NCBI GenBank assembly: GCA_903834145.1
Contig: CAILHY010000032.1
Coordinates: 1 to 64,000 of the forward strand
From: an uncultured Actinomycetes bacterium
GTDB taxonomy: Bacteria; Actinomycetota; Actinomycetes; Nanopelagicales; Nanopelagicaceae
Direction: 5' to 3'
DNA length: 64,000 nt
A program made the translations under genes and the position numbers. Positions 59,219-63,248 of this stretch are shown one piece after another. A model generated the notes under the pieces. It was not told the DNA's origin and searched no databases. It was given only the letters and a program-made list of their open reading frames with translations. Every line of letters starts with the position of its first letter. Positions within the stretch are counted from its first letter, which is position 1.

Positions 59219-60385
59219 TCAACCGCCCGAAAATGCATCTTCGAGTTCAACATGTGCTAACTCGTCAGGATCCTTAAGCCATCCATCAGGAAGCGTGACC
59301 GGTCGGCCATGGCTAGTACGTCCGCGAGGCGCATCTCCTACTGAAATTGGATAAGGCTGATCAACAAGCTGATCAAGAAGTCCGCGAAATTCTGCCAGGG
59401 TGGAGACCATTCCAAATTGACGACGAAGCGCGCTATGGACTCTAAAACCTTTGAGATACCAAGCCATATGTTTGCGCAAATCACGACAGCCACGTTCTTC
59501 AGATTCGAAGTAGTCAACGATTAATTCTCCGTGACGAAACATAATCTCGCGCACTTCAAAAAGAGTAGGAAGGTGCCTGGTTTCATCCCCCGCAAACGCA
59601 GCAACTAAATCAGTAAATAGCCAAGGACGGCCTAGACAACCGCGACCTACAACAACACCCGCACATCCGCTTTCATTCATCATGGCCATGCCATCGGCGC
59701 CGCTCCAAATATCTCCATTACCTAACACGGGCACTCCCGTGGGTTTGAGGTGCTCAACAAGGCGGGTGATTGCACTCCAATCCGATTTTCCTTCATACAT
59801 CTGAGCCGCGGTCCTTGCATGAAGAGCCACCCAATTAACGCCGAGATTCGCTGCAGTGGTTGCGGCCTCTAAATACGTTTCATGATCGCTATCAATGCCG
59901 ATTCGCATCTTCACAGTGACAGGTATTCCAAATGGTTTGGCCGCTTCTACCGCCGCTCCAACAATTGCAGAAAAAAGCCGGCGTTTATAAGGCAGAGCGG
60001 CTCCCCCACCTTTGCGCGTTACTTTAGGCACGGGGCAACCAAAATTCATATCAATGTGGTCGGCTAAGTTTTCACTTCCCAGCATTGTTACAGCAGCTTT
60101 CATCGCATCGGGATCCACGCTATATAACTGAACGGATCGAGGCCACTCACCTTTGCCGGGCACAATCATGCGAAGCGTTTCCGGACGGCGTTCAATCAAG
60201 GCACGTGCCGTCACCATTTCAGAAACAAAAAGGCCAGCACCTTGTTCGCGACAGAGAGTGCGAAAGGGAGCATTAGTAATGCCCGCCATCGGAGCCAAGA
60301 CCACAGGCGGATTAATTGAATAATCCCCCGTAGCTAACCGAAGGGTTAAGGGATTTATGACCCGAGAAGTCGTGGCGCTAACCAT
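59219..60385 (-). CDS. dus: tRNA-dihydrouridine synthase
   Basis: 388 residues. FMN enzyme that reduces uridine in the D-loop of t[21 protein letters not shown] near residue 30, [20 protein letters not shown] with the catalytic Cys, [15 protein letters not shown] and GNGDIWSG. It starts inside the end of glyS (31-base overlap) because there is no later good start. Confidence 0.93.
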
Positions 60386-61734
60386 GCCTCTACTTGATCA
60401 AGTGCAATGCGCTCTTGTCCCATGGTGTCGCGGTCGCGAATTGTTACAGCGTGGTCATCGAGAGTGTCGAAGTCCACGGTGATGCAATACGGGGTTCCGA
60501 TTTCATCTTGGCGACGATAACGACGACCGATAGCACCGGCATCATCGAAATCAATATTCCAATTCTTACGTAACTGCGCAGCGAGATCGCGCGCTTTTGG
60601 CGAGAGATCGGCATTGCGAGATAAAGGCAACACTGCAGCCTTAACGGGCGCCAGACGATGATCAAGTTTGAGCACGGCACGCTTTTCCATTTCGCCCTTG
60701 CTATTGGGGGCCTCATCTTCAGTAAAGGCGTCCATCAAAAAAGTAAGTGTGCAACGGTCAACTCCTGCTGCGGGTTCGATGACATAAGGAGTCCATCGCT
60801 CATTCTTTTCTTGATCAAACCAAGAGAGATCTTTGCCCGATGCTGACGAGTGGGCTTTGAGGTCGAAATCACCACGGTTGGCAATGCCTTCAAGTTCTCC
60901 CCATTCAGTGCCAGCAAATTCAAATTTGTATTCGATATCTGCAGTCCGTTTGGAATAATGCGACAACTTCTCTTTTGGGTGATCGTAAATGCGAAGACGC
61001 TCTGGGTTAATACCAAGATCTGTATACCAAGCCATCCGAGTATCGAGCCAATATTGATGCCAATCTTCGTCGGTCCCTGGCACAACAAAAAATTCCATTT
61101 CCATCTGCTCGAATTCGCGAGTACGGAAAATAAAGTTTCCTGGAGTAATTTCGTTGCGGAAAGATTTACCAATTTGGCCAATGCCAAATGGCGGCTTCTT
61201 CCGCGATGTTGTTGCTACGTTATCGAAGTTGATAAAGATTCCTTGGGCGGTCTCAGGACGCAAGTACGCTAAACCAGATTCATCCTCGACCGGTCCAAGG
61301 TAAGTCTTGAGCAATCCTGAGAACTGTTTTGGCGTAGTGAATTGACCCTTGTTGCCACATGCTGGGCAATTTACTTCTGCCAAAGATTCAGGTTGGCGCT
61401 TATTTTTAGCTGCAAATGCTTCTTCCAAATGATCAGCGCGATAGCGCTTGTGACATGACGTACATTCAGTGAGCGGGTCAGAGAAAGTTGAGACGTGACC
61501 AGAGGCTTCCCATACTTCGCGCGCCAAGATGACGCAGGAATCTAATCCCACAACATCATCGCGACCGGTGACCATGGATTTCCACCATTGACGTTTCACA
61601 TTGTTCTTGAGTTCGATCCCCAGGGGACCGTAATCCCACGCAGCTCGAAGGCCGCCATAAATTTCGCTGGAAGGGTAAACAAATCCTCGGCGCTTGGCCA
61701 AACTCACAATGGTTTCTAAACGATCAGTGGCCAT
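60355..61734 (-). CDS. glyS: Glycine-tRNA ligase (single-chain type)
   Basis: 459 residues from the ATG at 61734 (GGAG six bases upstream). Class II synthetase. Motifs: [17 protein letters not shown] near the start, motif 2-like [34 protein letters not shown]-terminal anticodon-binding domain. Cysteine pairs ([13 protein letters not shown]) bind zinc in the insertion. The homodimeric actinobacterial form. Confidence 0.95.
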
Positions 61735-61803
61735 ACAAATCTCCATCCGGCTGGCTGTCGGCGGTGAACAACTGGTGAAAGTTGCAACCCTTATTGAATA
61801 AGT

Positions 61804-62088
61804 TTACTGGCTCTGACTATTTTCATAGGCACCGGGTTCATCAAGGGCCTGGGCCAATAATGGAATTACTTCCATTTTCACTTTCGTGGAACTCAGCGCC
61901 CTGCGATAGGAGCCCACATTTGCCCATTTCGTCATCAAGACCCACAAAGTTGAGTCATCAAGATTCTGGCCTGATTCACCATCTAGGTATCCAGCGCATT
62001 CACTCAGAGCACCACGCGCTGCCTCGAGTTGAGCTTGGAATTGCCCAGCATCAGACAAGGGGACGCTAAAGCGGGCAATTGCGAGCAT
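61804..62088 (-). CDS. ABM-fold (monooxygenase-like) protein
   Basis: 94 residues. Ferredoxin-like ABM pattern: AIARFSVPLSDAGQFQAQLEAA, GYLDGESGQNLDDSTLWVLMTKW, and IPLLAQALDEPGAYE. A gene of this kind is regularly found next to glyS in actinobacteria. Biochemical role unknown. Its promoter (-10 TAGGCT at 62095-62100, -35 TTGTCA at 62119-62124) lies partly inside the Zur-type box, and the mRNA appears leaderless, so zinc control is likely. Confidence 0.82.
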   Translation of the reverse strand: MLAIARFSVPLSDAGQFQAQLEAARGALSECAGYLDGESGQNLDDSTLWVLMTKWANVGSYRRALSSTKVKMEVIPLLAQALDEPGAYENSQSQ

Positions 62089-62094
62089 GGACCG

Positions 62095-62124
62095 AGCCTA
62101 GCCCCTTGAAAGTGAAAATGACAA
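62095..62124 (-). promoter_or_regulatory. Promoter of the ABM-fold gene
   Basis: On the minus strand -35 TTGTCA (62119-62124), 18-base spacer, -10 TAGGCT (62095-62100), six bases to the ATG at 62088. Leaderless. The -35 overlaps the Zur-type box. Confidence 0.55.
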
Positions 62125-62133
62125 TCATTTTCA
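62113..62133. promoter_or_regulatory. zur box: Zur-type operator, perfect 9-3-9 palindrome
   Basis: TGAAAATGA, CAA, TCATTTTCA: perfect nine-base arms around three bases, matching the Fur/Zur family consensus. Both -35 elements of the divergent ABM and ZIP genes lie within it. The Fur-family gene next to the transporter is the obvious binder. Confidence 0.85.
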
Positions 62134-62146
62134 TTTCTGTTACCTT
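62118..62146 (+). promoter_or_regulatory. Promoter of the ZIP transporter gene
   Basis: -35 ATGACA (62118-62123), 17-base spacer, -10 TACCTT (62141-62146), then six bases to the ATG at 62153. No ribosome site, so the mRNA should be leaderless. The -35 lies within the operator. Confidence 0.6.
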
Positions 62147-62152
62147 TTTGCC

Positions 62153-62890
62153 ATGAACATTGCCATCGTCTTTGCCGCCTTAACGGTCGGGGCAACAACT
62201 CTGGGCGGATACGTTGCGTTGCGATCGAAGGATCGCTTCCACTTGCTGCTGGGACTTTCAGCTGGATTGCTGCTGGGCCTTGTCGGCTTTGATCTTCTGC
62301 CGGAAGTCTTTAAAGACAATCACCAAGTAGTCGGTGGCGTTCGGGCCGTCTCCATTGCCATCGTTGGCGGATTTCTCCTGCTGCACATTTTGGAGCGACT
62401 ATTTGGTTCGCACGAACCTGCTGAATCTGATTATGGACACGATCACGAACACCACAACATCGCCGGCACCTTAGGTGCAATTGCCATGGGTGGCCATGTC
62501 TTTCTCGATGGCATAGGTCTGGGCGTCGCATTCCGTGTCAGTAATGCATTGGGTATAGCCGTCTTCCTTGCCATTGTTGTCCATGCCTTTAGCGATGGAC
62601 TCAACACCGTCTCACTCTTGATCAAAAGTGGACAATGGAGTGAACGGGCTAAATTACTTCTTGTTGTTGATGCTGCCGCGCGATTATCCGGCGCCGCTAT
62701 CGGTTCCTATCTCGCACTAAATTCTTCATGGCTCTCACTCTACCTCGCATTATTTTCTGGTTTCGTTATCTACTTGGCAACTTCACATATCTTGCCCGAA
62801 GCACATTCCAGACACCCATCCAAATGGACACTCGCTGCAACTGCACTGGGCGTTGGGATCATGTGGTTAGTCGTGGCTTTCAGTGCGTAA
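62153..62890 (+). CDS. ZIP family metal (zinc) transporter
   Basis: 245 residues, about eight membrane helices. His-rich loop YGHDHEHHN near residue 95, metal-path motifs HVFLDGIGLG (about 120) and HAFSDGLNTV (about 142). Brings zinc or a similar divalent ion into the cytoplasm. Derepressed when zinc is scarce, judging by the operator over its promoter. The last eight bases overlap the zur start. Confidence 0.9.
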   Translation: MNIAIVFAALTVGATTLGGYVALRSKDRFHLLLGLSAGLLLGLVGFDLLPEVFKDNHQVVGGVRAVSIAIVGGFLLLHILERLFGSHEPAESDYGHDHEHHNIAGTLGAIAMGGHVFLDGIGLGVAFRVSNALGIAVFLAIVVHAFSDGLNTVSLLIKSGQWSERAKLLLVVDAAARLSGAAIGSYLALNSSWLSLYLALFSGFVIYLATSHILPEAHSRHPSKWTLAATALGVGIMWLVVAFSA

Positions 62891-63248
62891 ATCCGTTAGC
62901 GGTGTATTGGCGACTCTCGAACATGTCGGTGGATTTGCCAGTGCGCAGGAGCTCTACCAACTGATGCATCGCGATGGGGCAAAAATTGGCCTCACCACCG
63001 TATATCGGTCTCTCCAAACGTTAGTTGAGGGAAATCTCGTAGATATTTTGCGACGCGAAGATGGCGAAGCTATTTATCGTCTCTGCGGTGAAAACCATCA
63101 TCACCACTTAGTGTGTAAAAGTTGTGGCAAAACTGTAGAAATTGAAGGCGGCGCCATTGAGAAGTGGGCAAAGACCATTGCTAGCGAAAATGGTTTCCGC
63201 GATGTCGGACATACTGCCGAACTCTTTGGAACCTGCGCTAACTGCTAA
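62883..63248 (+). CDS. zur: Fur-family zinc-responsive repressor
   Basis: 121 residues, GTG start. Winged helix with GFASAQELYQLMHRDGAKIGLTTVYRSLQTL, then a dimerisation domain with HHHHLVCKSCG and a final CANC, the two CxxC pairs of the structural zinc. Shares a transcript with the zinc transporter and should bind the box at 62113. Stop overlaps the convergent hydrolase by 11 bases. Confidence 0.9.
   Translation: MRKSVSGVLATLEHVGGFASAQELYQLMHRDGAKIGLTTVYRSLQTLVEGNLVDILRREDGEAIYRLCGENHHHHLVCKSCGKTVEIEGGAIEKWAKTIASENGFRDVGHTAELFGTCANC

Follow-up and report, generated by a model that had tools for sequence, protein, structure and literature searches.

The 64,000-nucleotide stretch of DNA analyzed here (the window) contains a palindrome resembling the binding site of a zinc regulator, located in the short spacer between two divergent genes. 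One of these encodes a ZIP-family metal transporter and is followed by zur, while the other, adjacent to glyS, encodes a small protein with an ABM domain. This arrangement raises the question of whether the palindrome serves the importer and its regulator only, or whether it also places the ABM gene under the control of zinc, as the original prediction had proposed.

Genetic organization of the locus

The source genome is 1.75 Mb in size and 98.6% complete. The following genes were recognized at the locus:

60355-61746, minus strand: glyS, downstream neighbour of the ABM gene (NF003211, E 9.2e-204)
61804-62088, minus strand: ABM-domain protein, 94 aa (PF03992, E 4.7e-7; AlphaFold2 model, pLDDT 90; PDB ABM-fold matches)
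62153-62890, plus strand: ZIP-family metal transporter, 245 aa (PF02535, E 1.6e-17)
62883-63248, plus strand: zur (PDB 3mwm, E 4.7e-41; PDB 2o03, E 6.8e-39)

The spacer between the divergent ABM and ZIP genes spans positions 62089-62152 (64 bp). The first 8 bp of zur are shared with the 3' end of the ZIP gene, and the two genes may be translationally coupled. The transporter was assigned to its family with a score of 64.2 bits (PF02535 cut-off, 35.1). It was the only ZIP found, as a search of the genome for a second ZIP or for ZnuA gave no hit.

The ABM domain was assigned in the same manner (30.3 bits; PF03992 cut-off, 23.1), and the AlphaFold2 model (pLDDT 90) displays the ABM fold, matching ABM structures in the PDB with TM values of up to 0.82. 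These structures include SnoaB, Rv0793 and LsrG, but at only 10-21% identity to the protein they give no indication of its enzymatic role. By profile and predicted fold the protein appears to be a member of the ABM family, and any monooxygenase activity is putative.

The closest solved relatives of the zur product, 3mwm and 2o03, are Zur of S. coelicolor and FurB/Zur of M. tuberculosis, respectively. Inspection of the alignment by eye revealed that the cysteine pairs and the HHHH columns are identical, in agreement with conserved zinc ligands and with orthology. The window protein is clearly a zinc-type regulator of the Fur family. A more divergent Zur (45-47% identity) was observed in some other acI genomes (loci L163, L164, L165 and L175), where no ZIP gene lies beside the ABM gene.

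A predicted composite Zur-type operator in the spacer

A perfect 9-3-9 palindrome, TGAAAATGACAATCATTTTCA, is located within the spacer at positions 62113-62133. It overlaps a 10-1-10 core of the actinobacterial type (62116-62136, centre 62126), in which 9 of the 10 arm positions are paired. The window box therefore fits the pattern of actinobacterial Zur boxes (21 bp, 10-1-10 or 7-1-7, of the TGANAAT-N-ATTNTCA type). To define the operator, 44 related boxes were compared; this set omits two boxes retrieved in the wrong orientation (L036 and L117) and three that lie outside the list of distinct boxes (L038, L042 and L045), a list that already excluded L014, L031, L034, L035, L050 and L087. On average, the 44 boxes kept 8.84 of 10 pairs when read as 10-1-10 around the equivalent of position 62126, compared with 7.91 of 9 pairs when read as 9-3-9. 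The conserved block spans 24 bp and consists of the 10-1-10 core and an overlapping second heptamer half:

62113-62136, no strand: predicted Zur operator, conserved block (sequence; conservation of 44 related boxes; unique in the genome)

The palindrome is not easily attributed to chance. In first-order Markov simulations, a perfect 9-3-9 inverted repeat arose in a spacer of this size with a probability of about 2e-4, and 0.3 such repeats were expected in the 64-kb window, compared to the two that were found. When the 1.75-Mb genome was scanned with the 21-mer pattern, one site matched perfectly and three others carried 2-3 mismatches, each of these three lying in a coding frame or at its start. 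A sequence model of 25 positions, built from 29 related boxes with the window site in the training set, scored this site at 31.1 bits (E 4.6e-7) and the runner-up at 16.6 bits. The runner-up is a terminator-like hairpin between convergent genes. All candidate boxes of this genome other than the window site (L002, L003, L004, L066 and L172) were rejected because they lie in coding frames or in such a hairpin. Looser searches were at chance level: a 15-mer with up to 3 mismatches gave 6 matches in the window (3.7 expected), and TGANAANNNTTNTCA with up to 1 mismatch gave 68 in the genome, compared to 71 for the reversed control. The palindrome had thus been correctly predicted, and no other strong match exists in the genome.

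The same prediction had assigned the site to one repressor dimer, which is doubtful in view of the 24-bp composite structure with its overlapping second heptamer. A single dimer should not be assumed because several Zur dimers are reported to occupy one site in S. coelicolor (PMC11077047). We infer that Zur binds the window site in a zinc-dependent manner, with more than one dimer on it.

The inverted repeat could instead be the target of another metal regulator, such as Fur or IdeR, or have arisen by chance, an explanation that we regard as very improbable. A similar sequence does occur in the classical Fur box. However, a search of the genome for the Fur family returned two genes only, zur and one whose best match is PDB 3eyy (E 8.2e-44), an entry for Nur. 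Moreover, the box is unique in the genome, and among relatives it co-occurs perfectly with zur, as described below.

Predicted divergent leaderless promoters

On both sides of the spacer, a putative promoter was identified at a distance consistent with a leaderless transcript:

62118-62146, plus strand: predicted ZIP-zur promoter (-35 ATGACA, 62118-62123; 17 bp; -10 TACCTT, 62141-62146; 6 nt; ATG at 62153)
62095-62124, minus strand: predicted ABM-gene promoter (-35 TTGTCA, 62124-62119; 18 bp; -10 TAGGCT, 62100-62095; 6 nt; ATG at 62088)

Both predicted -35 elements fall inside the operator, so that a single box lies over two core promoters, each predicted to be leaderless. A strict E. coli-type sigma-70 scan of the spacer yielded no promoter, and the assignment accordingly rests on position and conservation. 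Among 77 relatives with the same divergent gene pair, a TAnnnT motif is present 6-7 nt before the ZIP start in all 49 loci with a box and all 28 without one, and equally before the ABM start (49/49 and 28/28); for L087 the ZIP start was moved upstream before counting. Within the window, a TAnnnT -10 was found at a possible start in 13 of 55 larger genes, compared to 5.9% at internal start-like codons (the ABM gene is below the size cut of this count). Leaderless transcription from both sides is likely, because the -10 position is fixed in 77/77 relatives and the motif is in excess at the starts of window genes. The -35 hexamer of the ABM gene is not conserved, its best match reaching 3 of 6 positions or fewer in 21 of the 49 box loci, and the element is weak at the majority of loci.

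In the window genome, the geometry of the sequence therefore agrees with what had been claimed for it: ATGACA and TTGTCA are each correctly spaced from a -10, and the box covers both -35 regions. The proposal of divergent leaderless promoters is well supported by the -10 motifs kept on both sides in every readable relative.

The box accompanies zur and the importer

The distribution of the box was analyzed in 80 loci retrieved from species genomes with the ABM protein as the query. Many are titled Candidatus Planktophila, Nanopelagicaceae or uncultured freshwater actinobacterium, while some MAGs carry different names in their titles (Streptomyces griseus, Bifidobacterium breve, Streptomycetaceae). 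The window itself probably comes from an acI-type genome (Nanopelagicaceae). The loci comprise (i) 45 with ABM, ZIP, zur and the box, (ii) 27 with ABM and ZIP, and neither zur nor the box, (iii) five cut by a contig end before zur becomes visible (four with a box, one without), and (iv) three without ZIP (L096, L098 and L124). The states of box and zur agree in 72/72 informative loci in which ABM is divergent from ZIP. In the glyS tree, box and zur agree in all six independent pairs located on well-supported branches (sign test, p 0.031; 18 pairs when all branches are counted). The ABM and ZIP trees yielded three and one well-supported pairs, all agreeing and too few for a test. A whole-genome search for a true Zur in the 28 no-box genomes was negative in 28/28: in 22 the only hit to the Fur family is a weak one (E 3e-13 at best), and six contain none, compared to 4e-61 and 1e-58 in two box genomes searched in the same way. 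The identification of the site as a Zur-type box is thus supported, and its conservation in relatives, put forward earlier as a check, was found in all 45 of these loci in which zur was judged present.

The ABM-ZIP spacer measures 60-79 bp in loci with a box and 31-32 bp (51 bp in one) in loci without. In 48 of the 49 box loci, 18-20 bp separate the right-hand heptamer pair from the ZIP start; the outlier is L087 (37), where the box centre was found in reverse orientation. By contrast, the distance from the box to the ABM start drifts between 25 and 45 bp among the 49 box loci, and in L034 box and ABM are 80 bp apart. The 21-bp box fully overlaps the ABM -35 zone, taken at 17-bp spacing, in 30/49 loci, and overlaps it by 2 bp or less in 16/49.

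Within the genus, ABM was found in 10 of the 20 genomes searched, and zur in the other 10. In the ABM-less genomes, where glyS follows directly behind the spacer, the box is kept in 9/9 readable loci, five times letter for letter and four times with one substitution; the tenth locus (L037) is cut by a contig end before the ZIP promoter. The predicted operator therefore belongs to the importer (ZIP-zur) and not to the ABM gene, as indicated by its fixed spacing toward ZIP, its drifting spacing toward ABM and its persistence after loss of ABM.

These observations favour ZIP-zur alone as the conserved target. They would also fit the view that the box serves ZIP-zur only and that ABM is expressed independently of zinc, abutting the operator because the genome is compact. 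The ABM gene also keeps its -10 in loci without a box. We consider this a serious alternative, although somewhat short of an even chance. Against it, the window box covers the ABM -35 zone in full, and a repressor bound at that position should block RNA polymerase.

A second alternative is that Zur represses ZIP-zur and, in some lineages with a box-ABM offset of 40-42 bp, activates ABM or is neutral toward it. The offsets do cluster, at 31-33 bp (25/49) and 40-42 bp (15/49), the latter placing the box one helical turn further upstream of ABM, and the trees contain 8-10 changes of offset class. Zur of S. coelicolor, moreover, is reported to activate zitB from an upstream box (PMC5472717). However, offsets of 25, 28, 34, 37 and 45 bp also occur, and helical phasing, suggestive over all loci, shows no clear periodicity over distinct offsets. 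The window box itself overlaps the ABM -35, which is a repressing position. On balance, we judge this alternative to be improbable.

Our preferred reading, which we hold to be likely, is that the site is the Zur operator of ZIP-zur and that bound Zur probably lowers divergent ABM transcription as well. Zinc-loaded Zur would bind the 24-bp composite site and cover the -35 of the leaderless ZIP-zur promoter, so that importer and sensor would be made only when zinc is short. Repression of ZIP-zur, and with it negative autoregulation of zur, is very likely on this comparative evidence. Because the spacer is only 64 bp long, bound Zur would also cover the ABM -35 zone, and ABM transcription would probably be lowered in the window organism and its close relatives; taken by itself, ABM repression has about even chances. 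Of the joint control originally proposed, the part concerning ZIP-zur is supported by co-occurrence and fixed spacing. The part concerning ABM is plausible from the geometry, but the box tracks zur and the importer and survives the loss of ABM.

Possible alternative alleles of the ZIP segment

On the glyS tree, the no-box state requires 18 changes, of which six or more are forced by well-supported branches, compared with only two on the ZIP tree; the state is scattered on the former and nearly clustered on the latter (both are quick trees, and glyS is very conserved). Two loci, L125 and L151, have identical glyS segments and differ in box state. These results provide a lead that lineages may have exchanged the ZIP segment, which would then exist in two allelic forms, one with zur and the box and one without zur.

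ABM and ZIP remain divergent in the 28 loci without a box. The zur-less acI alleles (L089, L090, L093, L095, L099, L109, L110, L120, L121 and others) have ABM-ZIP spacers of 31-32 bp. Here, the two -10 boxes are only about 7 bp apart, so that the promoters should exclude each other. Such relatives, lacking zur and the box yet retaining the divergent gene pair, constitute a natural experiment on the purpose of the operator.

A recurrent glyS-ABM-zinc importer neighbourhood

Relatives of the ABM protein were detected in 175 of the 296 genomes of the class that were searched. A total of 60 class regions were analyzed: 45 chosen as one per genus among the listed matches of the class search, seven from a family with boxes at ZnuA, and eight re-fetched from the genus-level ABM search. 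glyS lies within 1.2 kb of ABM in 50/60 regions, an importer or zur is present on the other side of ABM in 34/60, and the importer is directly divergent from ABM in 13/60. A Zur-like box occupies the shared spacer in 9 of these 13, a proportion that should not be read as an unbiased rate, since boxes had already been seen when seven of the regions were selected. Of the 27 class loci with an importer, 23 have a box at the importer. The box motif matched 35 times in the 425,625 bp of class regions and not once after shuffling. None of the 60 regions combined a box at 150 bp or less from ABM with the lack of an importer, which again favours ZIP-zur alone as the conserved target.

In the ZnuA-type family, the divergent gene was ZnuA in 6/6 cases tested. 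The idea that boxes occur near ABM only together with ZIP was rejected, as they are also found where ABM faces ZnuA. In six loci of this family (L246-L250 and L252), the spacer between the divergent ABM and ZnuA genes contains two Zur-like boxes, the second extending as far as the ZnuA start codon in several. This arrangement counts in favour of the ABM half of the preferred reading.

That two unrelated types of Zur-controlled importer lie opposite ABM supports a zinc-related neighbourhood, though not direct control of ABM. The proposed link between ABM and zinc status is thus supported at the level of a recurrent glyS-ABM-importer neighbourhood, and membership of ABM in the Zur regulon is putative. 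A more far-reaching reading, which we hold to be unlikely, would have the ABM protein cooperate in zinc import in Actinomycetes and retain its place between glyS and the importer at hand, whether ZIP or ZnuABC. The ABM promoter would then be coupled to that of the importer in two alternative ways: (i) through the shared Zur operator, repressing when on the ABM -35 and possibly activating one turn upstream, and (ii) in zur-less acI, through 31-32-bp spacers that would admit one polymerase at a time. The repeated occurrence of this uncharacterised protein at a position flanked by glyS and a zinc importer is a concrete lead to its role.

Comparison with known Zur systems

The placement of one Zur box between two divergent leaderless promoters has been published before. 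In C. glutamicum, one 21-bp box is reported in the short spacer between cg0042 and cg0043, which have divergent promoters (PMC2823685). As in the window, the box has a 10-1-10 motif and overlaps both core promoters; the transcripts are reported as leaderless, although the start of cg0043 is also described there as deduced by prediction (PMC2823685). The systems differ in that both sides of the C. glutamicum box are parts of a zinc ABC transporter, for which binding and expression were measured (PMC2823685), whereas the window sides are ZIP-zur and an ABM protein.

The Zur protein closest to that of the window is from S. coelicolor, whose operators share a TGAAAATGATTTTCA-type 7-1-7 core (quoted in PMC2823685). 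This regulator is reported to repress znuA and to activate zitB (PMC5472717, PMC11077047). Unlike in the window, activation of zitB proceeds from a box located 8 nt upstream of the -35 (PMC5472717), more than one dimer is reported to bind, with several on one 33-bp site (PMC11077047), and the consulted parts of these reports mention no ABM gene. The mycobacterial smtB-zur locus resembles the window in the autoregulation of Zur and differs in being an smtB-zur operon, the consulted part of the source mentioning no divergence from ZIP or ABM (PMC7174638). A figure legend in a further study lists glyS as a neighbour of fur homologues in actinobacteria (PMC2464607). In the titles and abstract openings of the open-licence literature, no description of a Zur box combined with an ABM/glyS/importer arrangement was found. 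What is new here is the acI example, the zur/box and zur-less alleles, and the recurrent glyS-ABM-zinc-importer neighbourhood.

The kind of regulation is thus ordinary, and it is the attached natural experiment that is useful. The locus appears to represent a minimal zinc regulon of a small-genome freshwater actinobacterial lineage, with apparently one strong operator, one recognised importer and one sensor.

Finally, an Rfam search of positions 61600-62300 returned no family at or above the gathering score. The glyS leader, just upstream of glyS (61741-61761, minus strand), contains CCGACNNCCAGCCGG(ATGGAG), which was found in 121/125 glyS leaders at the family level and in 38/56 at the class level. 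It matched 38 times in total on both strands of the 60 class regions (425,625 bp), and possibly represents an uncharacterised glyS leader element.
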